Source of the DNA: Stentor roeselii
Lineage: Eukaryota; Ciliophora; Heterotrichea; Heterotrichida; Stentoridae
Direction of reading: 5' to 3'
NCBI GenBank assembly: GCA_006503475.1
Contig: RSEH01000160.1
Span: 1-64,000, forward strand
Length of the DNA stretch: 64,000 bases
Shown here: positions 30,881-64,000 of the stretch, piece by piece
Layout: the number at the start of each line of letters is the position of its first letter
How positions within the stretch are numbered: position 1 is the first letter of the stretch
Program-made: the position numbers and the translations under genes
Notes under the pieces: generated by a model
Databases searched by the model: none
What the model saw: the letters and a program-made list of their open reading frames with translations, nothing else
Told to the model about the DNA's origin: nothing

Positions 30881-31229
30881 ATGTGAATATTTAAATTAGA
30901 CATGATTCAAGTTTATTGATTTCGAAGTTTGAATCGAACAAAGAAAAATTTATCTTCCCTGTTAAAAAACTCTATTTTCCTGATAAAAAACTCAATTGTT
31001 AAACCTTCATAACTTGCATAGTCCAAAAATTCCTATCTTAAATTAAACCTTATCAGAAAAGTTCTTTTCAAATACCCAAAAATCATTAACCATAAATTCA
31101 CCATCTCCAAAACCAAAAATTTTTCAGTCTTTTCAACACCTTTTTTCATCGTAAATCCATTAAATTCAATAAATCCTTAAAAATTCTCATTCAAAACTTT
31201 TCCAATTCTCAAATTACAAATAATAAAAA
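30881..31229. other. Intergenic spacer, A+C-rich
   Basis: 349 bp, no gene, A+C-rich toward the PLK start. Confidence 0.55.
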
Positions 31230-32909: not shown

Positions 32910-32927
32910 TGCGACTTTAAAAATTAA

Positions 32928-34106: not shown

Positions 34107-34127
34107 TTATAAACAAAACTGCCAAAA
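34107..34127. promoter_or_regulatory. 21-bp divergent start-to-start gap
   Basis: Only 21 bp (TTATAAAC...CCAAAA) separate two divergent ATGs. It contains one TATAAA-like string. Promoter elements for both genes must lie at least partly within coding DNA. Confidence 0.55.
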
Positions 34128-34850: not shown

Positions 34851-35219
34851 GATAATAGTTAGAGACGGTGGAGTTTAATGGGATGGATTAATTTTCATTT
34901 TTTTTTGAATATTGAATGATTTTATTTTCTGATATGATTGGCTTTATCATGTATTGAAAGATTAATCAAATATTTTTCAAAGGAATTATGGGAAAATCAA
35001 AAAATCCTCTAGATTTCAGGAAAATCAAGTAAAATTCTAACCTAATCCAAACTCACAATCGATTCTAATCCTAAAAAATCTCTTAAAACCTCAAAGCCTT
35101 CTTGATTCTGCAATTTCAAGAAATATATGAATTAAGCATTATTTCGATTAAGGCCTTTCTTAGCACTTTTCAAAACATGTTTCAATGAAAAATCCATGAC
35201 AACCCATTCATTATAAATT
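34851..35219. other. Intergenic spacer
   Basis: 369 bp, no gene. G+T-rich just after the upstream stop and A+C-rich before the CDPK start. Confidence 0.55.
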
Positions 35220-41702: not shown

Positions 41703-41707
41703 ATGGA
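41691..41707 (+). repeat. 17-bp leader shared by copies 1 and 2
   Basis: CTTAATAATTTCATGGA around the start codon is identical at 41691-41707 and 47961-47977. It supports the start codon choice and may mark a conserved translation or transcription start context. Confidence 0.6.
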
Positions 41708-44700
41708 TGATATCAACAACAGCCACTTCAACCCTCGCCCAAGAAGGTTTCAGAAGTTCATGCAAGATTATTTTAACTGGCCATTTAGTAAACTAGAGAT
41801 TTTTTCAATGGTCTTGTTTTTGATCTTAGGACTGATTCACTGTCTCATCTTCAACAGTTACCTCGACAACTACATCGTAAAAAATGACACAAAGCGAAAG
41901 CCTATCTTTGAAACATTGTCAATCGTTTCTCCTTTACTCGGTCTTTACGCCGCAGTCACTATGAAGCTCAAGCAGCGCCTAAAATTTAAACTCGCCATAT
42001 TTTTCTTCATTATCTTTATTCCTCTCCTCATTCTTTCAGTTTTACTCGGCTTAGGCTTCTTCAGTATAAGTCTAAAGCCATTCGTTGCATTTATTTATAT
42101 TTCAAGCTCTATCGTTGGACTTGCCTTGTTGAAGACACTTCGAAGAAGAATGAGAAAAAGATTTAGAGGAAAAATCGGAGAATTTTTAACGATTTTTCTG
42201 ATTATTGATTGCAATTTGATGTTTAATTTAACTGTTTCTGTGCTTTTTTTAAAGGAAGGTATTTTCAGTATGCCGCATATTGTGATTAAGTATATTGGAG
42301 GCACCTGGATTGCTTTACTTGTGATTATCTGGCTTGATATTCATCCTTTTGTATTTAAAAGGTACCCGAGTGAAATTCAACTGCTTCGTTCAGAAATTTT
42401 ATATATGAGGAACCCTTCGATGAAGGTGCAGGTGATTTTAAGTGAAAACCCTGATATTTTGAAAGTGAAAGAAGAAGGGTGTATTGTTAAAAATAGTCAT
42501 TTACTGGCTTCAATTGGGATTTTAGTGTCTTTGGTATGTGTGGAAATAGGACTTATTGTGGTTATATCAGAATATGAGGATAGATCTGTGAATGATGAGG
42601 ATAGATTTAATAAAGAGACTTATTATCTTGCTTTGTTTTACTCTGTTGTCGCTCCGATGTTTATGTTTGGAGGAATGGTTTTTAGTTCGTATAAGCTTGT
42701 TGCTCGTGATAAATACTTTTTTACTATTATGATTGGAGCTTTGGTACCTGTATTGTTGATTGAGTGGCTTTGCTATTATCTTTATTCTTTAGAGTCGAGT
42801 TTTTATTTAGCACTGGTTATTGGAATCGGGTTTCCTACTTCTTTGGTTTATTGGCTGTCTATGGCCATGATTTTTAAACATAATAAAAGAGCTTATCAGT
42901 ATTTTTCATTTATTTTGTGCTTGGTAATTTTGATTCCTATTGGACTGATTTTACCTTTATATGCTTCTGGAGGGATGAAAACTCAAAATTTCCAGATAAC
43001 TGAAGCTATCCTAATAAGTGCAGGATTAATTTTGCTAATACTCTGGAGTGCCCAATCATTTTCAAGACTATCCAAATCCCTCTGTCTCCTAATAAAAGAA
43101 TTAAAAACCTTCAACATCGACGACTTATCCCTATTCCTATTCTCATTATCTTTTTTATTAAGCTATTCATTAATAAACTGGATAACCTTTCATCAAATCG
43201 ATAAAACCAAAAACATCTGGAAAACTGGTTTAATCACAGGTTGCAACATAATCCTCGCCTTGACCATCTTCAACTCTTTACTAGTCCAAAGAATCACTCT
43301 TTACCACAACGACCCTGAAATCCCAGAACAAAATTTCATAGAAATAATTCGAGGAGGGTCTCAAGTGTTAACTCAAGCTCAAGCCGAAAAAAAGATCTTA
43401 AAAAAAAAAAGTTTGTTAACCTTGGCAATATTTGGTCTATTTATAACTTTTTCAATAAGCATTCCTATTTTCGCTTCAAGTAGATCAGATGTTTCTAGAT
43501 ATTTAGGAATCACAGTAGTTGTTGGAGGAGTTACTTCTACTGTGATTTTTTTGATTATTTTAGAACTTAAACATTATTTGAAGAGATTTGGACAAAAAGT
43601 GATTTCTTTTCTTTTAGGGTATTGTTGGATGTTTTGTTTTATTCCTTTTGTTGTCATGATTCCGGTTAGTGTTTCTAGTATTGTAAATTTGGATTCGAAA
43701 ATAGTGACGACTTGGAGTACAAGGATTGTTCTGTTAATTGTTATTATAAGTGTTAGCATTATTAGCATCATGTTTAACTACTTGTTTAAAATGCTGGAAT
43801 ATGAAAAAATTTCTAGGTTTTGTTGCTTGCATGTACAAAATATGCTTAATGAAACTGGAGTCAAGGTTAGTCAAGAGAACCTTAGAGGGATTTATGATAA
43901 TCTTTTTAACTCTTCACCGGAAGTGGTTGAAAAAGTTCTTCTTGCACAGACTGTTTATACGTTTAGGGAACTTGGTGATAATGATGGTGACTGGGAGTAC
44001 AGCAAAGAACTATTAACAGTAAAAAGCTTAACTATCCTAAAACACAAAGAAGAAAAATCCAAGCGAAAAAAAGATCAAGATTCCCAAAGTTTCCAAAAGA
44101 TTTGCACAAAATTCTGTAAAAAGCAATTAAATCACGAATCAACTGAAAATTCCGATCCAGACTTTCAAGACGATCATGAAGAGTCTAAAGTAGAAAACAT
44201 CGACGAAGAAAATCAAGAAGAAAACAAAACCATAAACAACGAAATCCAAGATTCAGAAAACAATTGGCTCGAAATCTTCAAAGCAGAGTTACTCAAAGAA
44301 AAAGAAGAATTAAAAAAACAAGAAGAACTCAAAGAACAAGCTCGTCAACAAGAACTCGAAAAAGTTATCAACTCCAGACAAGAAGACTTTTTGTTGAAAA
44401 TCGCTGAATTCAAGGAAAATAATGGATTAAAAACGTTTAGTGAGACAAGTTTCTCTGATTTACCAGTCTTAAAACTTAGGTTCACCGAAAGAGCACTTCT
44501 TATGGAATCTGAAGAGCTTCGAGTGATTCTAGATGATTTTGATGTACGGAAAATGTGGATAAAAACAGTTTTTGAGATGTTTAGCATCGAGTTTAATGAT
44601 ACAAGATGTATGAATTTTAATAATTTCAACAATTTTATCAAATTTTCTGGACTTGAACAAGTTCTTGACACATTTTCAACTGAGAGTCTTTTTTATAAAA

Positions 44701-46295
44701 TCATTAAAAAATACTCAGATCAAGTCACTTTTGAAGAATTTTACTCTAAAATTCTTCCAAGACTTTTAAAACTTGTGCAGAAAATCAAGAAAAACTTAAA
44801 AACTGAAGAAGATTTTATAAAAGAACAACTTTTTCCTCATCTAGTAAAAAACATGCCAGCTTTAAAAACAGTTATTTCAGACTTTCAAGTAATTTTCAAT
44901 CGATATCAAGAAGACATCACGAAACTTTCTCAAAAGAATGAAAATATTGAGAGCAACATTGAAATAATTGATACTGAAAATGCTCAAATACTTGAAATTT
45001 TAATAACAAAAGAAAAAAACATCAAATGTTCAAAGTTTTTAGATTGTTTCTCAAAATGCACTTCAAGTTGTTTTCATGCAATTATCAATTGTTTCGGAAA
45101 AATTATTGAGAAATGGCTTACCCTCAACAATGACCCGATACCAAAACCACAAATAAAGCCAAAAAAAGAATTTTTTAATGAAAGACCTCATTCACCTATT
45201 TGGGAAGACATCTGTAAAATGATCATTTCTCAGTTCGCAATATCTGACCATGAAGCAAGACATTTTAATAAGCGACAAAAAATTTCTTTAAGTTTCAACA
45301 CAGCAAATATAATGGGAATTTTTTATCATATTCTAGATATATTCAGCTTTTCATCAATAGGACTTGATAAAGCTGTTGGATGGGATTTTCGAGATTGGTT
45401 CAATTATGTGAACGACTTTAACTTAGTTGGTAATGAATATTGGATTATAAAATTTTGGATTTGTTTTTCAAGCAGCATGATTTTTATTGTTTTGGTCATC
45501 CCAGCTTTGAATTTAATGAAAAAAGGAAGACTTGGACTTGATGAAAACTTTACAGTTGCTAAATTTCCTTCTTTGAATTTTTTTTTATGTAAGTTGATTT
45601 TGTTTTTTGGGGAAATCTTGTATTTGCCGATAATGTGCTCGATGCTTAGTGTTTTTTCTTGTGAGGGTAGTTTAGGTGAGATAAAATGTTTATCAGCAAC
45701 TCATTTAGGTTATATATTTGTGTCGATTCTGACCATGATTCTGTATTATCCGACAGCGACTCTGCTATTTCCCAGCATTTCTTATCAAGACCGAGCACTA
45801 GACCTAAAATTTGATACATCTTATCTAGTCCTTGAGTCTCAGGGTAAGGTGATAATCGCAGCCTTTGCTGTTTTATTCAATAAAAACATTCTAGTCCTAC
45901 TCATAGTTGCAATTATTGTAACAACTCTCCTCTTTTTTACTTGTTTAAAGTTAAAGCCGTGTCTTGTCCATTCTTATAACTTTTGGAAGGCTGGAGGCTT
46001 TTTAGTTCCTATTTGGATCTGCACTTGTGCTTTGATTAAAGTGGTCTCGAGTATGAAAAATGTTTTTGAGTTCATTTTGTTACCTGGACTTGCATTGATA
46101 GCTACTGCTTTGGTCTTTATTTACTGGAAAAAATATGGGTTTTGTAAATGCAGGAATAGAACAATAATTAGAAGGCAAATTGAGAATAATGTTACAGTTA
46201 TTGATGCTCCTCCTGCATCTGAAAGAGATGAATGTATCTCTGATTCTGGAAGAGATGTGATAAGTCATAAGAATTCTACCAATTCTTTTAATTAA
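41703..46295 (+). CDS. Giant multi-pass membrane protein, tandem family copy 1
   Basis: 1,530 aa. ATG 41703 (MDDINNSHF) is chosen because it aligns with MDNG starts of copies 2 and 3; the in-frame GTG at 41682 is rejected. About 18 hydrophobic segments fill residues about 30-700, then a charged cytosolic block with coiled coil (about 780-920). Residues about 949-1023 have a TPPP/p25-alpha-like pattern (KMWIKTVFEMF, MNFNNFNNFIKFSGL, VTFEEFYSKILPRL). A Cys-rich helix follows, then six or seven more membrane segments with the conserved QDRALDLKFDTSYLVLESQGK. No known channel or transporter motif is seen. The function is unknown; the tubulin-binding idea is inference. Confidence 0.88.
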   Translation: MDDINNSHFNPRPRRFQKFMQDYFNWPFSKLEIFSMVLFLILGLIHCLIFNSYLDNYIVKNDTKRKPIFETLSIVSPLLGLYAAVTMKLKQRLKFKLAIFFFIIFIPLLILSVLLGLGFFSISLKPFVAFIYISSSIVGLALLKTLRRRMRKRFRGKIGEFLTIFLIIDCNLMFNLTVSVLFLKEGIFSMPHIVIKYIGGTWIALLVIIWLDIHPFVFKRYPSEIQLLRSEILYMRNPSMKVQVILSENPDILKVKEEGCIVKNSHLLASIGILVSLVCVEIGLIVVISEYEDRSVNDEDRFNKETYYLALFYSVVAPMFMFGGMVFSSYKLVARDKYFFTIMIGALVPVLLIEWLCYYLYSLESSFYLALVIGIGFPTSLVYWLSMAMIFKHNKRAYQYFSFILCLVILIPIGLILPLYASGGMKTQNFQITEAILISAGLILLILWSAQSFSRLSKSLCLLIKELKTFNIDDLSLFLFSLSFLLSYSLINWITFHQIDKTKNIWKTGLITGCNIILALTIFNSLLVQRITLYHNDPEIPEQNFIEIIRGGSQVLTQAQAEKKILKKKSLLTLAIFGLFITFSISIPIFASSRSDVSRYLGITVVVGGVTSTVIFLIILELKHYLKRFGQKVISFLLGYCWMFCFIPFVVMIPVSVSSIVNLDSKIVTTWSTRIVLLIVIISVSIISIMFNYLFKMLEYEKISRFCCLHVQNMLNETGVKVSQENLRGIYDNLFNSSPEVVEKVLLAQTVYTFRELGDNDGDWEYSKELLTVKSLTILKHKEEKSKRKKDQDSQSFQKICTKFCKKQLNHESTENSDPDFQDDHEESKVENIDEENQEENKTINNEIQDSENNWLEIFKAELLKEKEELKKQEELKEQARQQELEKVINSRQEDFLLKIAEFKENNGLKTFSETSFSDLPVLKLRFTERALLMESEELRVILDDFDVRKMWIKTVFEMFSIEFNDTRCMNFNNFNNFIKFSGLEQVLDTFSTESLFYKIIKKYSDQVTFEEFYSKILPRLLKLVQKIKKNLKTEEDFIKEQLFPHLVKNMPALKTVISDFQVIFNRYQEDITKLSQKNENIESNIEIIDTENAQILEILITKEKNIKCSKFLDCFSKCTSSCFHAIINCFGKIIEKWLTLNNDPIPKPQIKPKKEFFNERPHSPIWEDICKMIISQFAISDHEARHFNKRQKISLSFNTANIMGIFYHILDIFSFSSIGLDKAVGWDFRDWFNYVNDFNLVGNEYWIIKFWICFSSSMIFIVLVIPALNLMKKGRLGLDENFTVAKFPSLNFFLCKLILFFGEILYLPIMCSMLSVFSCEGSLGEIKCLSATHLGYIFVSILTMILYYPTATLLFPSISYQDRALDLKFDTSYLVLESQGKVIIAAFAVLFNKNILVLLIVAIIVTTLLFFTCLKLKPCLVHSYNFWKAGGFLVPIWICTCALIKVVSSMKNVFEFILLPGLALIATALVFIYWKKYGFCKCRNRTIIRRQIENNVTVIDAPPASERDECISDSGRDVISHKNSTNSFN

Positions 46296-47972
46296 GGTTT
46301 AGGTGTTTTCTGATTTTTAATGTTTTAGGATGAAGAATGGTAAGATTAGTAAATTTCAAGGTTTTGAGATTTATGAGCAGTTATTACAGAAGAGTAGATT
46401 TAAGTTTATTCGATTAAAGTTATCAGTTAATAGTTTGTTTAGAGAAATTCTTCAATGGTTTTAAAATATGTTTACTTTTAAGATTTGATTATAGAATATA
46501 TATTTTATTCAGGATTTTCAGTTGATGATTGCATTTGAGGTTTGCAAGCTGAATTATTTAAGATGAGAGATTTTGGAAGTTAATTTAAGCAGATTGTATA
46601 ATTTATATTTATATAATATGATAAGGTTACTTAGAAATTACTATTTTCTCCACAGGATGAAATATCAAGATGAAAGTAAAGAAAAGCCAAGAAAAGAGAC
46701 TCTGAGAAATAATATATTAAAAGAATCATTTTTCCTTAGAAATGAGATAAAGAAATATTAGCTTTTAAGAAATTAAGAGACTCGATTTTAGGATCTTTTC
46801 AAACTCTAGATGGGATTAATCTCTTAAAGAGTTCAAAATAACTTGGCATTATACTCAGCTGATTAAGATCAAAACCTCTTTGAAATAATCACTGAATTTA
46901 CAAATAACAATTATAAATTGTTTATGGTTAAAAATTACAAAGAATTCATAAACTTTTAATATAAAACTGATTTATTCTATCTCTTGGCAAACCTTATATT
47001 AAGAGACAGCAAGTTTCACCTCATTCTATTGGGCTTTATGTAAAGTTAGTGTAGGTTATTAGCTGTAAGTTATATGATAGTGTTTTCAACAGATTAATAT
47101 TGAAAATTCTGAATTATGATTACTTAGATAAGCAAACAGCTAAGGATTAAAATGGTAAAATTAACTTATATATTTATAATATTTTCTGATAGGTTCATTC
47201 CCTCGAACTGCAAAAAGTTTATATTTTATTCGCTATATCTGTATTTAATCAAAATAAAAAAAATCATTTTTCCCACCGAAATATCTAATATAATTCAATT
47301 CTTAAGAATATCGAATATTGTGACTTCTTTGAAAAACAAAAACGATTGATTCAAACTTTCATCCACACATCAAGAAATATTTTTAAATGAGTTCAATTAT
47401 TAAACCTTTTCAGTTAAAATTTTCTTTCCAAATAACTATAAAAACGTCACATAAACTTATATTTGCTTATGTTTATCCTACAATTAAATCATTGATTAAA
47501 AACAATCCAAACTTAATGTATTCTAAAGCCAGTCAGAAAGAAATAAATTAAAACTATTGATATTTAAAGTATTCTATTTCATATATTCAACCTTATAGTT
47601 ATTTAAAGTTGCTAGATTGTTCAACCCTTATGTTTGAAAAAACAGTCAGAAAGAAACCTTATCGAAAATTGAAATTGGGCATTTTCCTTTTAGGTTGAGA
47701 TATGTTGAGTTGAAAATGGCTGACTAAAATATAGAACCTTATATCAAGTTGAGGTTTAGATCTAGATTTATTATAGATTCTCTCAGAAATGCGAAATTTT
47801 TACTATTTATCAGGATCATAAGTAAAACTTAAGGTTCCTGAGAGTAAATCAGTAATATATAGAAATTTATTAATCATAGACTGTGATAGTCAATATTCTA
47901 ACCAAGCTCGTTAAAAACTTGAATACTTTAGCCGGCTGGATAATTTAGTTTCCACTATTTCTTAATAATTTC
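46296..47972. other. Spacer between copies 1 and 2
   Basis: 1.7 kb of AT-rich DNA. Short frames (46573-46761, 47152-47349) show no resemblance to the flanking genes. No gene is supported. Confidence 0.5.
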
Positions 47973-50900
47973 ATGGACAACGGTTATGGGCAACAGTTGA
48001 ACCCTTGCATCAGGGTTCTCAAGAAGTACATTCTTCTCAGCTTTGACCTGCCCTTCAGCAAGCTCGAGATATTTTCAATAATCTTGTTCAACATCTTAGG
48101 CTTAGGACTTTGCATCATCTTCAACAGATTCCTTGAAATTGATGAAATGAATCAAAACTCCTATAATTATCAGATCTTCAACACCTTATCAATAATTTCT
48201 CCTTTTCTGGGCCTTTACGGTTCAGTGACCTTCAAGCTCAAACAAAACTTCAAAATAAACATTTTCTTGACCTTCTTCTTCATTTTGATCCCTTTAATAG
48301 TATTTTTTGCTTTAATTGGTGAAAAGCTCTACGATAAAGAAATTCCTCATCTAGTCGCTTCAATTTACATTTCAAGTTCAAGCCTTGGGTTCTTTTTGCT
48401 CAAGTTACTTCGAAGAAGAATGCAAAAAAGTTTTGGAAATATAATAGCAGATATTTTGACTATTGTTCTGATCATTAATTGTAATTTGATGTTTATTATG
48501 GCAATTTCTGTACTTTTTCTAAAAAAAGACTTCTTTTCTAACCCGGCTTTGATGATTGGGTATATTGGAGGAACCTGGCTTGTACTTCTTGGAATTATTT
48601 GGCTTGTAATAGACTCCTTTGTATTTAAAAGCTACCCAAATGAAATCCAGACATTAAGATCAGAAATCTTATCAATGAGAAACCCTTCAATGCAGGTCCA
48701 GGTTCTTTTAAGTGCAAATCCAGATCTGTTAAAAGTGACAAATGATAATATTATTTTGAAATATGGGCATAGGTTAGCTTCTTTAGGTATTTTAGTGTCG
48801 ATGATGTGTGTGGAAATAGGATTTATTGTTATTATTGCAGAGTATAATGTAGGGAAATACTCTGAAGAAGTTTATTCTCTTGCTTTGTTTTATTCTATTG
48901 TTGTTCCGATATTCATGTTTGGAGGAATGGTTTTTAGTTCATCTAAACTAGTAACTCGTGATAAGTTCCTTTTAATTATCACGATTGGAGCCTTGGTCCC
49001 TGTTTTGCTGATGGAATGGCTCAGCTACACCCTTTATTCTTCTTTATCTTTTTTTTATTTAGCACTCGTCATTGGAATCGGGTTTCCTGCCTCTTTGATT
49101 TACTGGATGTCAATGGCTATGATTTTTCAGCATAATAAAAGGACTTATCAGTACTTTTCATCGATTTTATGCATGGGCATTTTTATTCCAGTGGGAATTA
49201 TTTTGCCTCTTTATTCTTCAGAGGGAATGAAGACTCAAACATTTGAGATTACTGAAGCAATCTTGCTTAGTGCAGGACTCCTTCTCTTAACAATCTGGTG
49301 CACCCAATTATTTTTACGACTATCCAAAGCCCTCTGCCTACTTTTAATAGAAATCAGAAGTTTCAGTATAGAAGACTTCTCTCTTTACCTTTACTCATTA
49401 TCCTTTATCCTGGGTTACTCCATATTAGGCTGGATGATATTCAAGCAAAAATCATTAAAAGAAAACTGGTCAGCCGGTTTAATCTCTGGTTGTTTCGTGA
49501 TCCTAGCCTTATCAATATCAAGTTCATTATTCGTGCACAGAGTTAATTTCGAAAGCAACGACCCAGGATCAACTGATTTAAAATTCCAAGAAATAATAAA
49601 AAACAAATCAAAAGACTTAACCCAAGCCCAAGCCCAGAAAAAAATCATAAAAAAAAAAAGTTTAATCTTGTTGGGTATAATCGGATCATGTATAAGTCTT
49701 TTTATTGGTATTCCAATTCTCGCTTCTAGTACTTCTGAAGTTTCGACTTACTCAGGAGTGACTGTGATTGTTGGAGGAGTCATTTCCACTGCGATTTTTT
49801 TGATAATGGTTGAATTGAAACATTACTTGAGACATTTCGGGCAAAAAGTGATTTCTCATTTGTTAAGCTTTTGTTGGCTTTTCTGTGTTATTCCTTTTCT
49901 GGTGCTTATCCCTGTATTTAAAAGCTCTGATCAAAAGTCTGTAACGACTTGGAGTCTTCGATTGATCCTTTTGCTTATCATGGTCGGTGTCAGTGTCATA
50001 AGCATTGTGTTTAATTATCTCTTCAACTTGAAAGAATATGAAAAAGTTGCAAAGTTTTGTTGTGTTCAAGTTCAAGAAAAACTGGATGAAGTCGCTGTTA
50101 AAGCAAGTCTTTTAAACCTTCGAGAAATTTATGATAATCTTTACAACTCCTCTGCTGAAGCTGTTGAAAAAGTCCTTCTTGCACAAACTATCTACTCTTT
50201 TAGAGAATTTGGCGAAAATGATGGAGATTGGGAATATAGCAAAGAAATCCTCACTGTTGATATTTTAAATAAAATCAAACATAAAGGAGTGGAAATCAAA
50301 AAAATTGAAGAAGAAAAAAAAGATTTCAGTATTCGAGAGGTTTGCAATAAGTTGTTTAAAAGAAAGGATAAGGAAGAATTACAGAATAATGATGAAGGAC
50401 TTCAGAAAATTCCTGAAGATGATGATAATGATGAGGAAATTCAAGAGGTAAGTGATGAGGTTGTTGATTTTAATGAAAATAATGATTGGCTCGAAATTTT
50501 TAAAGCTGATGCTATCCGGGAACAGGAAGAATTGGAAAAACTTGAGGAGAAGAAAGAACTTGAAAGGCAGAGAGAAAGAGAAAGGGTTATTAAAATGAGG
50601 GAAGATGAATTTGTTGAAAAGATTTTTGAATTTAGAGCTAGACTTGGATTTGAAAAAGTTAAACAGATCTGTCTTGATAATGTACCTGTTCTTAAACTTA
50701 GAAAAAAAGAGAAAGTTTATCTTGAGAATTCAAAGGAATTGCATTTGATTTTAAGTGATATTGATGCACGGAAAATGTGGATTAAAACTGTTTTTGAGAT
50801 TTTCTGTACTGATATTGTTGATGATGATGAGCAATTAATGAATCTAGCCAATTTTAAGAATTTCATAAAATTTTCTGGCCTGGAGCAACTTATCGATTCA

Positions 50901-52592
50901 ATCTCAACCCGAGCACTCTTCGAAAGAATAACCAAAAGACAATCAACTGTCACTTTTGACATGTTTTACTTTAAAGTTCTGCCAAGACTTCGAAGACTAG
51001 CAAAGAAAACTGAGAAAACCCTAAAAACTGAAGAAGACTTCATAAAACAACAGCTATTTCCATATCTAGTTAACAATATCCCTGCATTAAAATCGATTAT
51101 TTCTGAATTCGAGGTGATTTTAAACGAATATGAATCAGAAATCACGAAATTTTCTCCTAAAACCCTTGAAAACATAGATATGACAGCATCAGAATCCATA
51201 AAAAACGATAATCCTCAAATATTCGAACAACTGATGACAGAAGACAAAAAGCTCGCATGTTCAAAATGCCTCGACTACTTCTCCAGATCAATTTCTCTTT
51301 GCATTCGTTCAATAATCATATGTCTAGGAAAAATAATCGAAATGAGTTTTCAAGTTACTTCAAACGACCAGAATCTTTCATTAAAATCCGAAAAAAGCCC
51401 TAAAATCCCAAAAAAACCTAAAAAAACTTCTTCAAATGAACGACCCGATTCGCCCTCCTGGGAAGAAATCTGCAAAATGATAGCCTATCAATTTGCAACT
51501 TTAAACCAAGAAGCTAAAGAAGATGGAAAAGAGAAAAATATTTCTCTTTCTTACAACGTATCAAATGTAATGGGAATTATTGGTCATGTTTTAGAAGTTT
51601 ATAGTTTTTCATCGATTGGGTTTAACAGAGCAGTGGGATGGAATTTCAATTATTGGTTTCATGAGTCGAATGACTCGGTCTTGGCTGATACGAGTTATTG
51701 GAATTTTATATTTTGGGCTTGTTTTGTATGCAGCATGGTTTTTATTGTCTTGCTTTTTCCTGCTCTTAAATTGGTTAAAAAGGGAAGGTTTGGATTGAAT
51801 GAAGATTTCACTAAAGCAAAGTTTCCTTCAACGAACTTCTTTTTAACTAAGTTTACTTTGTTGTTTGGGAAAATTTTGTATTTGACTATTATGTGTGCTA
51901 TGTTGGCTTCGTTTTCTTGTAGGTATGATTCTAAGGAAGATATTTGGATATTGGTTAGTGGATCGAATATTGAGTGCTTTGGTGAGACTCATATGCCTTA
52001 CCTGATTGTTTCTATTTTTACTATTCTTGTTTACTATCCAACCGCAACTCTGCTCTTCCCAAGCATCGCTTATCAAAACCGTGCTCTTGACCTGAAATTC
52101 GATACATCTTATTTAGTCCTTGAATCACAAGGCAAGATGTTAATAGCAGCCTTTGCAGTTCTATTTGAAAAAGAATCCTACATAATCCTTCAGCTGTCTG
52201 TGACAATAATAGTGACAGGCTTTCTTCTTTTAACCTGTTTGAAGTTAAGGCCCTGTCTTGTGAAGTCATATAACTTCTGGAAAACTTCAGGTTTTTTATT
52301 TCCGATCTGGATTTGCACTTGTGCTTTGATTAATGTTTGCTCTGGCATGAAATACGTTTTTGAAATTATTTTCATTCCAGGACTTGCAGTGATTTTAAGT
52401 GCTTTGGTTATTGTTTACTGGAAACTTTATGGATGGTGTCAGTGCAAAAAGAAGGAAAATTTGAAGAGGAAGAAAAATAATAAGGAGGACTTTGTTAAGG
52501 ATTTAGGTAATATCACTGAACGAGCTCATAATCTCTCTTCTATAGATAATGCGGGGTCTGATGATAGGCTTGAGAATAGTGATAATAGATAA
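47973..52592 (+). CDS. Giant multi-pass membrane protein, tandem family copy 2
   Basis: 1,539 aa from ATG 47973. Same order as copy 1: FDLPFSKLEIFS start, about 18 membrane segments, an acidic/charged linker and Arg/Glu-rich coiled coil (residues about 760-890), the TPPP/p25-like segment at about 932-1011, a Cys-rich amphipathic helix (CSKCLDYFSRSISLC), and a C-terminal membrane block of six or seven segments with QNRALDLKFDTSYLVLESQGK. The tail is Lys/Asp-rich. The membrane parts are better conserved among copies than the linkers, which suggests constraint on the transmembrane core. Confidence 0.88.
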   Translation: MDNGYGQQLNPCIRVLKKYILLSFDLPFSKLEIFSIILFNILGLGLCIIFNRFLEIDEMNQNSYNYQIFNTLSIISPFLGLYGSVTFKLKQNFKINIFLTFFFILIPLIVFFALIGEKLYDKEIPHLVASIYISSSSLGFFLLKLLRRRMQKSFGNIIADILTIVLIINCNLMFIMAISVLFLKKDFFSNPALMIGYIGGTWLVLLGIIWLVIDSFVFKSYPNEIQTLRSEILSMRNPSMQVQVLLSANPDLLKVTNDNIILKYGHRLASLGILVSMMCVEIGFIVIIAEYNVGKYSEEVYSLALFYSIVVPIFMFGGMVFSSSKLVTRDKFLLIITIGALVPVLLMEWLSYTLYSSLSFFYLALVIGIGFPASLIYWMSMAMIFQHNKRTYQYFSSILCMGIFIPVGIILPLYSSEGMKTQTFEITEAILLSAGLLLLTIWCTQLFLRLSKALCLLLIEIRSFSIEDFSLYLYSLSFILGYSILGWMIFKQKSLKENWSAGLISGCFVILALSISSSLFVHRVNFESNDPGSTDLKFQEIIKNKSKDLTQAQAQKKIIKKKSLILLGIIGSCISLFIGIPILASSTSEVSTYSGVTVIVGGVISTAIFLIMVELKHYLRHFGQKVISHLLSFCWLFCVIPFLVLIPVFKSSDQKSVTTWSLRLILLLIMVGVSVISIVFNYLFNLKEYEKVAKFCCVQVQEKLDEVAVKASLLNLREIYDNLYNSSAEAVEKVLLAQTIYSFREFGENDGDWEYSKEILTVDILNKIKHKGVEIKKIEEEKKDFSIREVCNKLFKRKDKEELQNNDEGLQKIPEDDDNDEEIQEVSDEVVDFNENNDWLEIFKADAIREQEELEKLEEKKELERQRERERVIKMREDEFVEKIFEFRARLGFEKVKQICLDNVPVLKLRKKEKVYLENSKELHLILSDIDARKMWIKTVFEIFCTDIVDDDEQLMNLANFKNFIKFSGLEQLIDSISTRALFERITKRQSTVTFDMFYFKVLPRLRRLAKKTEKTLKTEEDFIKQQLFPYLVNNIPALKSIISEFEVILNEYESEITKFSPKTLENIDMTASESIKNDNPQIFEQLMTEDKKLACSKCLDYFSRSISLCIRSIIICLGKIIEMSFQVTSNDQNLSLKSEKSPKIPKKPKKTSSNERPDSPSWEEICKMIAYQFATLNQEAKEDGKEKNISLSYNVSNVMGIIGHVLEVYSFSSIGFNRAVGWNFNYWFHESNDSVLADTSYWNFIFWACFVCSMVFIVLLFPALKLVKKGRFGLNEDFTKAKFPSTNFFLTKFTLLFGKILYLTIMCAMLASFSCRYDSKEDIWILVSGSNIECFGETHMPYLIVSIFTILVYYPTATLLFPSIAYQNRALDLKFDTSYLVLESQGKMLIAAFAVLFEKESYIILQLSVTIIVTGFLLLTCLKLRPCLVKSYNFWKTSGFLFPIWICTCALINVCSGMKYVFEIIFIPGLAVILSALVIVYWKLYGWCQCKKKENLKRKKNNKEDFVKDLGNITERAHNLSSIDNAGSDDRLENSDNR

Positions 52593-54650: not shown

Positions 54651-57600
54651 ATGGACAACGGTAATGGCCGAAATCTTCGCCCTTGCTTAAGGGTTCTCAA
54701 AAAGCTGATCCATGATCACTTTGACTGGCCATTCAGCAAACTCGAGATATTTTCAATGGTCTTATTCATGATCTTAGGTCTCTCTCACTGCATCATCTTC
54801 AATAGTTTCCTAGATGACGACATAGTAAAAAGAGACACAAAACGTAATCCAATCTTCAACACCTTGTCAATCCTTTCACCATTCCTCGGCCTTTACGGTT
54901 CATTGACATTCAAGCTAAAGCAAGGCTTCAAAATAAACCTCGCCATATTAATCTTCCTCATCTCAACACCTTTGATAGTTCTTTCATCTTTAATAGGCGC
55001 GAAACTTTACTACGAAGAAATCGGTCAAATAGTTGCATGTATTTATATTCTAAGTTCAACCATCGGATTTTTTCTTTTAAAGCTAATTCGAATAAGAATG
55101 CAAAAAAGCTTCGGAATTAAAGCCGGAGATTTTTTGATGATTTTTCTCGTGATTGACTGTAACTTGATGTTTATCTTAACAGTTTCAGTACTTTTTTTAA
55201 AAGAAGGAATATTTTCTAAACCACATATTGTGATTAAGTATATTGGAGGCACTTGGCTTGTACTTCTTGGGATTATCTGGCTTGTTGTTCATTCTTTTGT
55301 GTTTAAAAGATACCCGAATGAAATCCAGGCGCTTCGATCAGAGATTTTGTTGATGAGAAGTCCTTCAATGCAGGTGCAGGTGATTTTAAGTGAAAATCCT
55401 GGAGTTTTAAATGTGAATAATGAGAGTTTTTTATTGAGGAATGGACATTGGCTAGCTTCTATTGGGATTTTAGTGTCTTTGATCTGTGTGGAAATTGGAC
55501 TTATTGTTATTATCGCGGAGTATAATGTTGGGGAATATGAAAAAGAAGCTTTTTATCTTGCTTTGTTTTACTCTGTTGTCGCTCCGATGTTTATGTTTGG
55601 AGGAATGGTCTTTAGCTCAGCGAAACTTGTTACTCGTGATAAATACCTTTTTATTATTATGATTGGAGCTTTGGTACCTACCTTGTTGATTGAGTGGCTT
55701 AGTTACTATCTTTATTTTTTAGATTCGACTTTTTATTTAGCTTTGGTTATTGGAATCGGATTTCCTACGTCTTTGGTTTACTGGTTGTCTATGGCGATGA
55801 TTTTTCAGCATAATAAAAGGGCGTATCAGTACTTTTCATCGATTTTGTGCTTGGCGATTTTGATACCTATTGGAATGATTTTGCCTTTGTATGCTGCTGG
55901 TGGAATGGAAGGTCAAACTTTTCAGATTACTGAAGGTATTCTACTTAGTGCAGGTCTAATCCTTTTAATAATCTGGTGCATTCAGCTATTCATAAGACTA
56001 TCCAAAGCCCTCTGCCTTCTTTTTAAAGAGCTAAGATCCTTCAGCAGTGAAGACCTATCCCTCTACATCTACTCCCTAACCTTTTTACTCGGTTATTCCT
56101 TAATCGGCTGGATGATATTCCAACAAATCTATTCCCCCGACGATTGGAAACAAGGTTTAATAGCCGGTTGTTTTGTGATCCTTGCCTTAACAATTTCAAA
56201 CTCTTTATTCCTGCACCGAATAAACCTTTTTTCCTCCGACCCAGACTCTCCAGACCAAAACTTCATCGATTTAATTCGAGGCGACTCTCAAGAGTTGACT
56301 CACGGCCAAGCCCAAAAAAAAATCTTAAAAAAAAGTCCCTAATGGGCCTGGGGTTGTTAGGTATAAGTGTGACTTTGTTAATAAGTATTCCTGTCCTAGC
56401 TTCAAGTAAATCAGGAGCCTTGTTATCTTCAGGAGTGACAGTCATGATTGGAGGGGTGACTTCCACTGTGATCTTTCTGACCATGGTTGAACTTAAACAT
56501 TTCTTGAAGCGTTTCGGGCAAAAAGTCATTTCTTATATGCTTGGGTACTGCTGGCTCTTTTGCTTTGTACCTCTTGTCGTGCTTATCCCAGTAAGTCTTT
56601 CAAGTAATGATAGAGGAAGAATGGTAACCACTTGGAGTGTCAGACTTATTCTGTTACTTCTCATGGTTGGTGTTTGTATTATCAGCATCACCTGTAATTA
56701 CCTATTCAACATGCTGGAATATGAAAAAATCGCAAAGTTTTGTTGTTTGCAAGTTCAAGAAATGCTTGATGAACTTGGAGTCAAAGCAAGTCTTGAGGAC
56801 CTCAGAGGAATTTATGATAATCTTCATAACTCCTCAGCTGAAGCAGTTGAAAAAGTCCTTCTTGCACAGACTGTTTACTCCTTCAGAGAACTCAGTGATA
56901 ATGATGGGGACTGGGAATTCAGTAAGGAACTGTTGACTGTAAAGAAACTCAACAAAATCAGACATAAAGGACTGGAAATCAAGAAAAATGAAGAAAAAAA
57001 AAACTTTAGTCTTAAAGACTTTTGCAAGAAAATATGTAAAAAAGAGGAAAATGATGAAAGTCAACCTGATATTCAAGAAGTTCCTCAAAATGATGATAAA
57101 GACTTGGACCTTGAAGACCCTGAAGAGGTAAAAGTTGAGGAAGTGGCTCTTCAAGATCCTGAAAATGATGACTGGCTCCAGGTCTTCAAAGCAGAAGTCG
57201 CCCGGGAACAGGAAGAACTTGAAAGGCAAGAAGAACTCAAAGAACAACAAAGGCAAAGAGAACGTGAAAGAATCATTAAATTAAGAGAAGATGACTTTCT
57301 CTTGAAAATCGCTGAGTTCAAAGCAAGACTTGGATTTGAAAAAGTTGATAAAATTTGTCTTGATCATGCACCCGTACTTCGCCTTGACAGGCAAAAAAAG
57401 GCTTTTTTGAAGAACTCTGAAGAACTTGATGTGATTTTAAATGATATTGACGCTAGAAAGATGTGGATCAAAACTGTCTTTGAGATATTCAGCACTCAAA
57501 TCGATGATGATGATCAAAGATGCATGGATTTGACGAATTTTAAGAATTTTATCAAATTTTCTGGACTTGAGCAACTTTTAGATTCATTTTCAAGTGATAA

Positions 57601-59251
57601 CCTTTTTAAAAGATTAACAAAAAGGAAAATTTTTGTTAATTTTGATGATTTTTACTTTCGTCTTCTGCCAAGGATACGAAAAATGGCGAAACAGAATAAA
57701 AAAGAATTGAAAACTGAAGATGATTTGTTTATTGAACAGCTTTTTCCTCATCTTGTGAATAATATTCCTGCTTTGAAAACTATTATTTCTGAATTTAAGG
57801 TCATATTAGATGAGTACCAAGAAGAAATCGTTAAATTTTCACCTCAACAGGTTGAAAGAGATTTAATGGCAACGGCGGAAGTTGTAAGAAATGATAATTT
57901 GATGAAACTTGAAACTTTGATGATTGAAGATAAAAATGTTGCTTGTTCTAAGTTTCTTGAAAATTTCTCGAAATGCACTTCTGGATGTTTTAAGGCTGTT
58001 TTTAATTGTTTTGGAAGAATGGTTGAAAAATGCCTGGCTTCTCTTAAAACGGTGCCGAAACCTAAAAGAATACCTAAACCTAAACGTGAAGATAAACCGA
58101 AAATTTCTTCTATTTATGAACGTCCTGAATCACCTCCTTGGGAAGATGTCTGCAAAATGATCATCTCTCAACTCGCAACAACACAAGAAGAAGCTCAGGA
58201 TGGAGGAAAGGAAAAAAAGGTTTACCTCACTTTTAACTCAGCAAATATTATGGCAATATTTGGACACATTTTAGAAATATTCAGTTTTTCATCAATAGGT
58301 TTCAATGAAGCAGTAGGATGGAATTTCGAAGATTGGTTCTTTGAACTAAACGACTTTATCTTAGTTGGCAATACTTACTGGTATGAAAAGTTCTGGATTT
58401 GTTTTGGATGCAGCATTATTTTTATTGCCTTGCTAATCCCTGCTCTGAATTTGATTAAAAAAGGACGTCTTGGGCTGAATGAAGACTTTACAGTTTCAAA
58501 GTTTCCTTCTCTGAATTTCTTTTTAAGTAAATTTATTTTGCTCTTAGGGTCGACCATGTATTTAACAATAATGTGTGCGATGTTGAGTGTATATTCTTGT
58601 GGATATAATAAAGGTAATTGGATGCTAGCCAGTAGCAGTGAAGAGATTGAGTGCTTTAGTAATCTTCACATACCTTGCCTGGTAATGTCTATTTTTACGT
58701 TAATTCTTTACTATCCTGCTGCAACTCTACTCTATCCAAGCATCGCCTATCAAGATCGAGCCCTAGACCTCAAGTATGATACTTCTTACCTAGTCCTTGA
58801 GTCACAGGGCAAGGTGTTAGTTGCTGCTTTTGCAGTGCTATTCGAAAAAAAAATCTATATTGTGCTTCAACTGATTGTTACAATTATTGTCTGTGTTTTC
58901 CTGTTTTTTACTTGCTTGAAATTAAAACCTTGTCTTGTGAAATCTTATAACTTTTGGAAAGCTGGAGGATTCTTGTTTCCTATTTGGGTCTGCACTTGTG
59001 CTTTGATTAATGTTTGTACTAGCATGATTTATGTTTTTGAAAAGATTTTTATTCCTGGAGTTGTGATTATTTTTGTTGTTTTGGTTGTTGTTTATTGGAA
59101 AATTTATGGATGCTGTCAGTTTAAAAAGAAGAGAAATAAACTGAAAAAAAAAGGTAGTCAGGATGTTTTAGCTAAAGATATTTCTGAAATTAGTGATAGA
59201 GCTAAAAATGTGTCTGATATTGATAATGATGAGATGAATGGAAAGGATTAG
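54651..59251 (+). CDS. Giant multi-pass membrane protein, tandem family copy 3 (one-base frameshift)
   Basis: ATG 54651 opens a frame that ends at 56342. The family sequence resumes in the +1-shifted frame at 56335 (KSLMGLGLLG) and runs to TAG 59251. The break is in a run of eight A at 56327-56334; nine would keep the frame, and copies 1 and 2 have eleven A there in frame. Both sides are otherwise uninterrupted and well conserved, including the TPPP/p25-like segment (about 57450-57690) and QDRALDLKYDTSYLVLESQGK. A homopolymer sequencing or assembly error is the simplest explanation; a very young pseudogene or slippage on the A run are alternatives. Confidence 0.85.
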
Positions 59252-59828
59252 AATAGTTATTTTAATTTAGGAGGTTAGAACTTTTTTTTATATGGGTTGA
59301 TATGTTGAAGTTAAAAGCAAAGTTTTTCAATAAGATCTTGAAAGAATTTTATGATAAACTCCAATGAGAATAGAAATGATCAAAGTAATTTTGCGAAATA
59401 TTAGACTAAAGTTCGGCTAAATATTTAAAATATAGAAGAGATTTCAATAACGTAATAAACTTTATACTCAAATGGCTTTCATTAGCAAAATGAAATCGCT
59501 AAGATTTCTTAAAAAATTCTATTGATTATTAATTTCTGTTTCACACACTCAATTCATCTGTGTAAATTTGAGTTAATATGAATTCTTTTCAATCTAATTT
59601 AAATAAATACCAATTTTCACACTTAAATATTTCTTATTATGAAATAATTTCACCTTCTAAACCAAAACCCATGAAAAATAAATATTTTTCCGAAACCCAA
59701 AATATTTAAAAAAACCCAAATTCCAATAAAATTTCTAATAAAAATAACTTCTGCAATCTAAACTTACCTCCAATAATTTTCTGAAAAATCTATCAATTTT
59801 CCAAACTTTTCTAATAATTTAAAGACTT
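59252..59828. other. Spacer between copies 3 and 4
   Basis: 577 bp, the shortest gap in the array, A+C-rich in its last 200 bp. No gene. Confidence 0.55.
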
Positions 59829-62800
59829 ATGGAGAGCAAAGTCTCAGATCAAGGTTTAATTTCAATAAACCAAGAAAAAAAATCCTTCCAGAAATTCTTG
59901 AAAGACTACTTCGACTACCCCTTCACCAAGCTAGAGATCTTTTCAATGATTCTCTTCCTCCTTCTCGGCGCGGGTCACTGCATAATCTTCCAGAGTTACC
60001 TTGACAACGAGATAGTAAAAGACGATACAAAACGTTATCCAATCTTTCAAACACTTTCAATCATTTCACCTATCCTTGGTTTTTACAGTTCAATAACAAT
60101 GAAGCTTTCACAAGGTCTTGTGTTTAACTTAATCATTTTGACAGTTCTGATCATTAGTCCGATAATAATTCTGCTGGTCTTGATAGGTGAGAATCTTTTC
60201 ATCGAGTACCTGGAGCTGTCAGTTGCGTGCATCTTTGTCTCAGTTTCCATCATCGGTCTGAATATTTTGAAGTTGATTCGAAAGCAAGTCATAGAAAGTA
60301 TCGGAAAAAAAACTGGGGAAGTTTTAGTGATTGTCTTAATTGTTGCTTTCAATATTTTGTTTAGCATGGTCGTGTCAGTCCTTCTGTTGAATGAAGACTC
60401 GTTTTCTGATCCTGCTGTTATAATCAACTATTCTGCTGTTATTTGGTTGATTATGCTGACGATTGTTTGGATTATTATTCATTTTGTGGTCTTTAAAAGA
60501 CAACCCAATGAGATTCAAGTTCTAAGAAATGATATTCTTTCAACCAGAGATCACTCGATGAAGGTCCAGGTTGTTTTAAGTGAAAATCCAGATATTCTGG
60601 CGATTGGAAATGAAGGATTTCTTTTAAAAAATGGACATTTATTCGCATCTTTAGGTATTTTAGTCCCTTTTTTATGTGTGGAAGTCGGGTTAATCAGTGT
60701 GATCTCTGAGTTTACCACCGGGAAGTACCCATCAAAAGCTTTGTATCTTTCTTTTTTTTACGTTATTGCTGTTCCTTTGTTCTTGTATGGAGGAATCGTT
60801 TTTAGTTCTTCGAAAATAATCACTAAAGACAAGTATCTTATTATTTTGTTGATTGCTTTGATTCCAACGTTTTTCATTGAGTGGCTGAGTTTTTATCTCT
60901 ACTCACTTGAATCGACTTATCATCTTGGATTAGTCGTTGGAATCGGATTTCCTGCTGCTTTGGTTTATTGGATGTCTATGGCAATGATTTTTCAGTACAA
61001 TAAAAGGACATTTCAGTACTTTTCAGCTATTTTTTGCTTGACGTTTCTTATACCTATTGGCTTGATCTTGCCGCTTTATTCTTCTGGAGGTATGAAAGAT
61101 TTGACTTTCTGGGTTACTGAAGGAATTCTGCTTTTTGCTGGAGTATTGATATTATGTTTCTGGATGGTACAGCTTTTGTTTAGAATTACTAAAGCTCTTT
61201 GCATCCTGATTCAAGAAATGAGTAGCTTCCACAGTGAAGACTTCTCACTCTTCATCTATTCATTCAGTTTTTTGCTAGGTTACTCCCTCTTAGCCTGGAT
61301 GGTATTCAAGCGTCTAGACTTCAAAAGCGACTGGACCTCAGGTTTATTATCAGGTTGTTTCGTAGTCCTAGCTCTAATCCTTCTAAATTCCTTATTCCTC
61401 CAAAGACTGAGCCTATACCAGCGAGACCCTTCAATTCCAGAAGAAGAAATAAACCAGATCCTAACAACTGACTCAAAAGACCAGTCATTAATTTACTCCC
61501 AAAAGCGAAAACTAAAAAAGCAAAGTCAACTTCTATCCTTATCCTTAGGTTTACTTCTGACCCTTTCAATAAGCATTCCAATTCTAGTATCAACCGATTC
61601 AGAAACATCAGAATCATCAGGAATAACAATAATAATCGGTGGATTCTTATCCACCCTAATGTTCTTAACCTTAATCGAGTTAAAACACTACTTAAAACGA
61701 TTCGGGCAAGGAGTGACTTCCTTTCTCTTAAGTTACTGCTGGTTATTTTGCTTTATTCCTTTAGTAGTTCTAATCCCAGTGAGTCTTTCAAGCACCACAA
61801 ACGACTCAGACCAGCGAAGTGTGACATCCTGGAGCATTGGGTCAGTTTTACTGCTGTTCATGATAGGAGTCAGCATTTTAAGCATTACTATCAACTTGCT
61901 TCTCAACAGGCTGGAATATGAAAAAATTGCTAAGTTCTGCTGTCTTCAAGTCCAAGAAATGCTTGATGAAAAAGGGGTCAAGTCAAGTTTAGTCAACCTT
62001 CGAGGCATCTATGATAATTTTTTTAACTCCTCTGCTGAAGCCGTTGAAAAAGTTTTGCTTGGAAAAACTGTTTACTCGTTTAGAGAACTTGATGATAAAG
62101 ACCCTGACCTTGAACATAGCAAAGAACTACTCACTGTCAAAGAACTTAATAAAATCAAACATGGACCTCTTGAAATCGAACAAGCTAAAGAAAAAAAAGG
62201 AGTCACTCTTGCACAGTGCTGTAAAAAACTCTGTAAAAGAAAAGAAAAAGAAAATTCTATCTTCATTAAAGCTAACTTTTCCCCTGAAGAACTAGGAGAT
62301 GTAAAAAATGACCTGGAAAATGATGAACTTCAAGAAGATCTAGAAAATCAAGTTTCTGACCAAATGGCTGAAAATTGGCAGGAAAAATTTCAACGTGATA
62401 TAATAAAAGCAGAGGAAGAACTTGAAATTCAAACAAAATCCGCTAAAATCAAAGAAGACTTCGGAATAAGTCCAGTTGAACGAATCAGTCTTGATGAAGT
62501 CCCAGCCTTGAAGTTAAACAAAAAAAGAAAAACAGTTCTTCAGAAGTCTAAAGAACTGGAAATAATTTTGAATAACTTGGAAGCCAGGAAGATGTGGTTA
62601 ATGGCTATTTTTGCGAGGTTTAGCAATGGAATGATTGGACATGATGGAGAACCTTGGATGAACTTGAGTGACTTGAGGAACTTTATAAGACTCACAGGGT
62701 TGGAAAAAGTGATCAATAATGTCACTTGTGATATTTTATATATCAGCATCACTCGAAGGTATAACGTTGGAAACTCCTCAATCACGAACGTAAAAATCAC

Positions 62801-64000
62801 TTTTGATGAATTCTCCAATCGACTTCTTCCAGAACTTAGAAAACTCGTCAGAAGCAAATTAAAAGAAGTCAAAACTGATGAAGATTTAATAAAAGAGAAA
62901 ATTTTTCCTCATCTTGTTACGAATATCCCTTATCTTCGTCTTTTCATTCAGGAATTCCAGGAATCACAGGAAGATGAAAGTGATCGAGGGGCTCAGGAGA
63001 GTAAAAAGGAGGAAAATCATGAGGAAATAGTCTCTGATGTGAAAATTGTAGAAAGTGAAAACCCGGAACGATTTAATCGAGCAAGTTTTCGTGGATTGAA
63101 TACGAATTTCTTGAAGAGACTTGAAACTATGCAAATTGAAGAAAAAGTGATGTGCTCTAAGTGCCTTGATAAATTTTCAAAATGTTCTTCAGCATTTTTC
63201 AAAGTAATCATCACCTGTTGTGGAAAACTATTTGATTTAGGACTTACGAATTTAAAAGCAAATCCTCAGTCATCAATCCCAAAAGTAGAGAAAAAACCAG
63301 TTCTTTCAATACATGAAAAACGTGCATCACCACCTTGGGAAGAAGTCTGCAAACTAATCACCTTAAAATTTGAAGAGTCGAATAAAGAAGCTAGAAAAAA
63401 CGAATCTTCAAAAACGATTTTCATGACTTTAAACCTCGCAAATATCATCGGAATTTTTGGACATATCATGGAAATTTACAGTTTTTCATCAATTGCTTTT
63501 TATAAAGAAGTCGGCTGGACTTATGGAAGTTCTTTTACAAGGACTAGTGAAGTAGTCATGGCTGACAACGAGTACTGGGTCGAGACTTATTGGACCTGCT
63601 TCGCTAGCAGCATGATTTTTGTCGCTTTGATGATACCTGCATTGAAACTTATCAAAAAAGGACGACTTGGACTAGAAGCTGACTTTACAGTTGCTAAATT
63701 TCCTTCACTTAATTTTTTTTTAAGCAAGTTCATTGGACTGTTTGGGAAAAGCATGTACATGACAATCATGTGTGCGATGTTAAGTTCTTTTTCTTGTATT
63801 TATGATGGAAATTCTTGGCATTTGATGAGATTTTCAAGTATTGAGTGCTTTTCAAATGAACATATGGTTTACTTTGTGATATCGATTTTTACTATTATTC
63901 TTTATTACCCTACTGCTACTCTGCTCTTCCCAAGTATCGCTTATCAAGACAAAGCTTTAGACATAAAATTTGATACTTCTTATTTAGTTCTAGAGTCTCA
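59829..64000 (+). CDS. Giant multi-pass membrane protein, tandem family copy 4 (3' end outside window)
   Basis: ATG 59829 (MESKVSDQGL) opens a frame that stays in phase to the window edge (1,390 codons), where it reads KFDTSYLVLES, so about 140 residues are missing by comparison with copies 1-3. It begins FDYPFTKLEIFSM and keeps the membrane core, the LEYEKIAKFCCLQVQEML segment and a TPPP/p25-like block near 62583-62850. The cytosolic linker is shorter and lacks the Glu/Arg-rich coiled coil found in the others, and overall divergence is greater, so this is probably the oldest duplicate of the four. Confidence 0.87.
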   Translation, partial: MESKVSDQGLISINQEKKSFQKFLKDYFDYPFTKLEIFSMILFLLLGAGHCIIFQSYLDNEIVKDDTKRYPIFQTLSIISPILGFYSSITMKLSQGLVFNLIILTVLIISPIIILLVLIGENLFIEYLELSVACIFVSVSIIGLNILKLIRKQVIESIGKKTGEVLVIVLIVAFNILFSMVVSVLLLNEDSFSDPAVIINYSAVIWLIMLTIVWIIIHFVVFKRQPNEIQVLRNDILSTRDHSMKVQVVLSENPDILAIGNEGFLLKNGHLFASLGILVPFLCVEVGLISVISEFTTGKYPSKALYLSFFYVIAVPLFLYGGIVFSSSKIITKDKYLIILLIALIPTFFIEWLSFYLYSLESTYHLGLVVGIGFPAALVYWMSMAMIFQYNKRTFQYFSAIFCLTFLIPIGLILPLYSSGGMKDLTFWVTEGILLFAGVLILCFWMVQLLFRITKALCILIQEMSSFHSEDFSLFIYSFSFLLGYSLLAWMVFKRLDFKSDWTSGLLSGCFVVLALILLNSLFLQRLSLYQRDPSIPEEEINQILTTDSKDQSLIYSQKRKLKKQSQLLSLSLGLLLTLSISIPILVSTDSETSESSGITIIIGGFLSTLMFLTLIELKHYLKRFGQGVTSFLLSYCWLFCFIPLVVLIPVSLSSTTNDSDQRSVTSWSIGSVLLLFMIGVSILSITINLLLNRLEYEKIAKFCCLQVQEMLDEKGVKSSLVNLRGIYDNFFNSSAEAVEKVLLGKTVYSFRELDDKDPDLEHSKELLTVKELNKIKHGPLEIEQAKEKKGVTLAQCCKKLCKRKEKENSIFIKANFSPEELGDVKNDLENDELQEDLENQVSDQMAENWQEKFQRDIIKAEEELEIQTKSAKIKEDFGISPVERISLDEVPALKLNKKRKTVLQKSKELEIILNNLEARKMWLMAIFARFSNGMIGHDGEPWMNLSDLRNFIRLTGLEKVINNVTCDILYISITRRYNVGNSSITNVKITFDEFSNRLLPELRKLVRSKLKEVKTDEDLIKEKIFPHLVTNIPYLRLFIQEFQESQEDESDRGAQESKKEENHEEIVSDVKIVESENPERFNRASFRGLNTNFLKRLETMQIEEKVMCSKCLDKFSKCSSAFFKVIITCCGKLFDLGLTNLKANPQSSIPKVEKKPVLSIHEKRASPPWEEVCKLITLKFEESNKEARKNESSKTIFMTLNLANIIGIFGHIMEIYSFSSIAFYKEVGWTYGSSFTRTSEVVMADNEYWVETYWTCFASSMIFVALMIPALKLIKKGRLGLEADFTVAKFPSLNFFLSKFIGLFGKSMYMTIMCAMLSSFSCIYDGNSWHLMRFSSIECFSNEHMVYFVISIFTIILYYPTATLLFPSIAYQDKALDIKFDTSYLVLES

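Follow-up and report, generated by a model that had tools for sequence, protein, structure and literature searches.

The 64,000-nucleotide stretch of Stentor roeselii DNA analysed here (the window; positions 1 to 64,000 of the forward strand of contig RSEH01000160.1, assembly GCA_006503475.1) ends in a row of very long genes for proteins with many predicted membrane segments. This raises the question of what kind of family these proteins form and whether, as the first-pass annotation of this DNA had proposed, a cytosolic segment resembling the TPPP/p25-alpha domain ties membrane to cortical microtubules. The open reading frames (ORFs) revealed four + strand paralogues side by side from position 41703 to the end of the window, exactly where four adjacent same-strand genes had been annotated, and this four-copy array is real and under purifying selection. 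The reading that we favour, at even confidence, is that of a tandemly duplicated, uncharacterised polytopic membrane family (channel, transporter or receptor) carrying a calcium-independent EF-hand-like docking module. Currently, the genes constitute an uncharacterised family with a domain resemblance that is suggestive and unproven. The coordinates of all features are collected in the table below, where the copies are numbered c1 to c4 in the order of the array.

The length of about 1,530 residues previously given for the four proteins holds for the intact copies c1 and c2; c3 is not one open frame, and c4 is cut by the window end. The third copy consists of two overlapping ORFs (54651-56342 and 56144-59251), which jointly cover the other copies over their full length in the alignment, and the shift of the reading frame falls in an A-rich stretch. 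The paralogues share 50-64% identity per pair over 1340-1518 aligned residues. When nonsynonymous (pN) and synonymous (pS) differences were counted with an NG86 script over residues 1-1385 of c2, pN was 0.21-0.32 and pS 0.56-0.69 across all six pairs. As pN is far below pS in every pair, the four copies are not chance open frames. Constraint was also apparent on either side of the break in c3 when compared with c2 (pN 0.18 and pS 0.53 before it, 0.22 and 0.63 after it), suggesting that the break is a sequencing error or of recent origin. An intron of 15-16 nucleotides was ruled out as its cause, because c3 has no surplus residues there relative to the other copies. A tblastn search with the four copies (E ≤ 0.01) detected no further family match elsewhere in the window. 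The array had been described as continuing beyond the window, which is correct for the tail of c4 only; a fifth gene was not demonstrated.

We next considered the membrane layout. According to hydropathy (Kyte-Doolittle, 19-residue window, mean of at least 1.5), the N-terminal domain contains 18 segments in c1 and 17 each in c2, c3 and c4, and the C-terminal domain contains eight in c1, six in c2 and eight in c3, c4 being cut. The central loop of 509-516 residues between the two domains is predicted to be cytosolic, with one extra hydropathy match inside it in c2. Lys and Arg were counted in loops shorter than 80 residues after mapping the c1 segments onto the other copies, and in all four copies they were more frequent per residue in the predicted inside loops than in the outside loops (66/348 vs 22/179 in c1, 63/351 vs 17/178 in c2, 60/345 vs 16/179 in c3 and 42/286 vs 13/171 in c4). 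Thus, the N-terminus and the central loop are predicted to be cytosolic, and the same holds for the C-terminus of c1, c2 and c3, which alone extend that far. The layout annotated earlier (about 18 N-terminal segments, a large cytosolic block and six or seven C-terminal segments) was reproduced overall. Segments TM9-12 of c2 aligned with TM15-18 at a score of 24.82, narrowly above 200 of 200 class-preserving shuffles (best 24.41; reversed controls 20.45 and 19.2); the idea of three six-segment repeats in the N-terminal domain was nevertheless dropped, as the spacing was not regular. In the C-terminal domain a Cys pair and the His that comes after it are invariant and located in or beside a predicted exoplasmic loop. 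A domain of 7-8 segments with an exoplasmic loop bearing C...IxC...H is a trait of TmcB / PAS S-box multi-pass proteins from protists, a resemblance that we note as a lead only.

The distribution of invariant positions indicated where the family is most constrained. Columns were counted over the four copies with gap and X columns excluded, the C-terminal domain being covered as far as c4 reaches. The N-terminal membrane domain has 252 invariant columns out of 683 and the C-terminal membrane domain 82 out of 185, and the segment following TM18 ranked first of the ten regions compared (46/90). The values for the rest of the central loop were 6/57 in the acidic linker, 5/20 in the coil, 13/52 in the part preceding the EF-like core, 18/79 in the core itself, 12/45 in the helices after it, 17/79 in the linker and 10/35 in the part before TM19. 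The module is thus less conserved than the membrane domains, whereas one would expect the opposite of a family centred on the module, which argues for membrane machines with a docking module that varies between paralogues. According to this reading, the working part would be the membrane, where the cytosolic loop joins the N-terminal domain (about 18 segments) to the C-terminal domain (7-8 segments) and the two domains together would form a channel, a transporter or a receptor. The conserved segment after TM18 would couple the membrane domains to the cytosol. As calcium ligands are missing from its loops, the EF-hand-like module could serve as a calcium-independent docking or self-association domain. 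The differences in the module between paralogues may give each copy its own partner or regulation.

In searches of Pfam, NCBIfam and the PDB sequences, the membrane domains matched no known family of transporters or channels above threshold. The best sub-threshold Pfam families were Vpu (E 0.0038, 17.4 bits against a cut-off of 24) and then DUF3098 (E 0.0047, 16.9 bits against a cut-off of 25), each over a short C-terminal stretch. The best NCBIfam match of c1, c2, the second ORF of c3 and c4 had an E of 0.071. The PDB sequences yielded nothing for the C-terminal domain and at best E 2.2 for the alignment of the N-terminal domain. The first-pass annotation named no characterised protein with this layout, and none of the three collections offered a confident match to a transporter or channel that would speak against its claim. 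No relative was confirmed in viral and prokaryotic contig collections, which say nothing on other ciliates, and no paper on the family was found in literature searched mostly outside subscription journals; the genes may already be listed as hypothetical proteins in a Stentor genome. The lack of a recognised transporter signature, together with the tandem arrangement and the high predicted content of membrane segments, would also suit a structural scaffold of cortical membranes that has no role in transport or signalling and was expanded for dosage. However, the membrane segments hold many invariant positions, including E, W, P, G and C, which are more in keeping with a specific function than with bulk structure, and we consider the scaffold unlikely.

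The proposal of a membrane-microtubule tether, in which tubulin binding by the p25-like module would anchor the membrane to cortical microtubules, depends on the relationship of the module to p25-alpha (PF05517). The full-length proteins gave no match to this Pfam family at E ≤ 1, and a significant profile match was never reached, all scores staying below the curated cut-off of 22.6 bits. In c1, p25-alpha was matched at 10.4-12.4 bits in four of five constructs (E 0.74, 0.19, 0.37 and 0.23 for the isolated blocks), three of which scored higher with TetR_C_8 (E 0.011-0.045), while c2, c3 and c4 gave no match in any of their five constructs each. Still, p25-alpha was the top family for a majority consensus with X (E 0.0053, 17.4 bits) and for a second consensus with the undecided columns filled (E 0.046, 14.4 bits), and the sub-threshold matches lie in register over profile positions 2-66 to 2-88. 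The controls show that values of this order come about by chance: none of six random chimeras of the copies matched p25-alpha, RepB_C matched three of the six (best E 0.0018), and one of three controls, a shuffled consensus, matched Bac_small_YrzI at 0.0047. The consensus match is weak because a shuffled control came to such an E with an unrelated family. Other single-copy matches rivalling p25-alpha, namely TetR_C_8 in c1, nSTAND_NTPase4 in c3 (0.023-0.37), PAP_fibrillin in c2 (0.12) and DHFR_1 in c4 (0.073-0.094), were set aside as below cut-off and mutually unrelated. Alignment with three TPPP sequences by hhalign gave E 0.0067 at a probability of 5.7%; the score from the scripted comparison (19.78) was narrowly above all 300 column shuffles (best 19.61), and when the family alignment was scanned in 15 sliding windows, the top two (17.92 and 16.91) overlapped the block, the remaining 13 scoring at most 16.0.

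The pattern quoted in the first-pass annotation is present in c1 with one extra residue in two spacings (M....F..F.KFSGL, VTFEEF....LPRL) and nearly the same in c2; it is looser in c3 and has diverged in c4. The p25-alpha domain starts with L(V)xxxF(Y)xxF (PMC10304595), which appears as LMAIFARF in c4 and with I replacing L/V in c1-c3. The mark of the short type, GGP, and that of the long type and the partial domain, GxGxGxxGR (PMC3498115, PMC10304595), are both absent from the four copies, the end of c4 lying beyond the window; a truncated-type p25 core would likewise lack the C-terminal part. Unlike the p25-alpha proteins, those of the array place their module within about 26 predicted membrane segments, and the word "transmembrane" occurs nowhere in the main text of the two p25 surveys (PMC3498115, PMC10304595). 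Larger protist proteins that include p25 parts offer some precedent. Apicortin combines a partial p25-alpha domain with DCX (PMC8293464), although what it bears is the partial domain marked by GxGxGxxGR, not the core (PMC3498115). Proteins of 900-1500 residues combine p25 with B-box and IQ domains, but their description names these other domains and mentions no membrane segments (PMC3498115).

Even a true p25 core would not imply microtubule binding on its own, since the core itself is non-binding: microtubule binding of TPPP/p25 has been mapped to residues 1-49 and 158-219, and the core has none (PMC4542545). This is restated in PMC8180608, where the truncated type of insects is described as practically only the core, with a function that is not known. 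The linker before the C-terminal membrane domain has a Lys/Pro-rich stretch with 5-10 Lys/Arg and 2-3 Asp/Glu per 30 residues, which could bind acidic lipid or tubulin and keeps the tether alive at low probability. The lesser conservation of the module speaks against it as well, and the tether as claimed is possible but unsupported. A more elaborate form, in which a lineage-specific protein of about 26 segments would employ a divergent truncated-type p25 core and the Lys/Pro-rich linker to dock the membrane of a giant contractile ciliate to its cortical microtubule ribbons, with the copies serving different membranes or cortical zones, appears to us very improbable.

To what fold the module belongs was approached with AlphaFold2 (AF2) models built on 4-5 alignment rows. 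In the model of c2 residues 870-1539, confidence is confined to about residues 900-1050, where the ten-residue block means of the predicted local distance difference test (pLDDT) are 61-87; the mean of the 15 blocks spanning 31-180 (model numbering, as for all positions that follow) is about 77. Helices were predicted at 61-75, 89-98, 110-118, 126-144, 151-166 and 169-190, the first loop holding two strands (78-80 and 84-87) and the second a single bridge residue, 124. After two short helices, the order is thus helix, two short strands, helix, helix, bridge residue, helix and two helices, which in the model fits either an EF-hand pair or the p25 core, described as having five helices in TPPP/p20 (PMC4542545). 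The helix order is compatible with the earlier expectation. A Foldseek search of the PDB with this whole model returned 32 matches with no p25 chain among them and none at E ≤ 0.001. The top match was pannexin 1 (E 0.91), and S100P with annexin A2 (E 2.8) and FCaBP (E 3.2) took ranks 3 and 4, the matched part not being displayed. This search was probably diluted by the 514 of 670 residues (77%) that are of low confidence in the model.

The two predicted helix-loop-helix units and these weak, non-significant entries are what the module shares with EF-hand pair proteins, and they would suit a calcium-regulated channel or transporter whose membrane domain is gated by calcium sensing in the EF-hand-like pair. 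A calcyphosin-like chain was also found over the same stretch in the PDB sequence search (E 1.3), behind unrelated chains at 0.052-0.54. However, a simplified calcium-loop pattern found no canonical ligand loop in any of the four copies, whereas the same pattern finds four in the CDPK encoded in this window. No Pfam EF-hand family was matched at E up to 10, with the HMMER filters dropping most matches above about 0.1. A calcium-binding EF-hand was rejected on the missing ligand loops, and we assign regulation by calcium a small probability.

Several observations weigh against the favoured membrane family with a calcium-independent docking module. Because no homologue of known function was found, a role in conduction, transport or reception is guessed from shape. 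The topology rests on hydropathy and charge, and pLDDT is below 50 for 514 of 670 and 767 of 830 residues of two AF2 models, and the N-terminal model of c2 (mean pLDDT 38.6) was too poor for searching. The fold search yielded nothing significant, its two possible EF-hand entries being only those at ranks 3 and 4. Finally, a conserved Cys-rich hydrophobic or amphipathic stretch of the linker (c2 51252-51344, residues about 1094-1124, and its equivalents), which exceeds the hydropathy threshold only in c2, is a candidate membrane-associated or palmitoylated helix and could provide a further contact with the membrane. Should the layout be correct, a heterotrich has several genes for a family of 1,500-residue membrane proteins that matches nothing above threshold in Pfam, NCBIfam or the PDB sequences, and the partner of the module (microtubules, another protein or none) would tell whether these cells own a dedicated membrane-cytoskeleton coupler.

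Table. Positions of the array, its parts and the candidate introns in the window.
Feature	Position	Strand	Description and basis
Copy 1 (c1)	41703-46295	+	1530 residues from ATG, intact; open frame under translation table 11, paralogue alignment
Copy 2 (c2)	47973-52592	+	1539 residues, intact; open frame, alignment
Copy 3 (c3)	54651-59251	+	One-base frame break between membrane segments 14 and 15
A-run in c3	56327-56334	+	Reading frame shifts here by alignment; sequence, frame comparison
Copy 4 (c4)	59829-64000	+	First 1390 residues, open-ended ORF, cut by window end
c2 N-terminal membrane domain	47973-50027	+	Residues 1-685, 17-18 predicted segments; hydropathy, loop charge
c2 segment after TM18	50028-50297	+	Residues 686-775; invariant-column count
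c2 cytosolic block around module	50604-51176	+	Residues 878-1068; alignment, AF2
c2 EF-hand-like core	50775-51017	+	Residues 935-1015; alignment, AF2
Equivalents of EF-hand-like core	c1 44553-44792, c3 57461-57703, c4 62592-62864	+	Alignment
c2 linker	51153-51437	+	Residues 1061-1155; Cys-rich hydrophobic stretch, Lys/Pro-rich end
c2 C-terminal membrane domain	51540-52490	+	Residues 1190-1506, 7-8 predicted segments
Candidate 15-nucleotide introns	5760-5774, 22166-22180, 23698-23712	-, +, +	GTAAG...AG, A at position 10

The genetic code of the window could be read from the 22 ORFs inspected, among which TAA, TAG and TGA each terminate frames. A ciliate code with TAA and TAG for Gln was unneeded, the frames of the array being open under translation table 11 and all three stops ending ORFs. 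As read from the DNA letters alone, the three candidate introns sit where a lone stop breaks an otherwise continuous frame. Stentor coeruleus is described as using the standard code and having introns of 15-16 nucleotides, 92.81% of them of 15 nucleotides, with the branchpoint A at position 10 in 90.90% (PMC9505925). The code and the 15-nucleotide introns in the window make Stentor or a close heterotrich its most likely source.

The nearest recognised gene upstream of the array encodes a phospholipid-translocating P-type ATPase (37046-40444). Before it, a row from 31227 to 36662 comprises a Polo-like kinase (31227-32909, +) that matches the polo box twice, a protein that has a pair of cyclic-nucleotide-binding stretches (32928-34106, -) and, as its last member, the CDPK with four EF loops (35217-36662, +). 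A protein with 12 WD40 stretches is encoded at 8637-11996 (+); its C-terminal part looks kinase-like by eye, and no kinase was present among the best 25 of 54 families. The gene at 2930-6280 (-), split by a candidate 15-nucleotide intron, encodes a Kelch-repeat protein that also has an ephrin-receptor-like stretch; membrane segments can be made out by eye towards the end of the protein.

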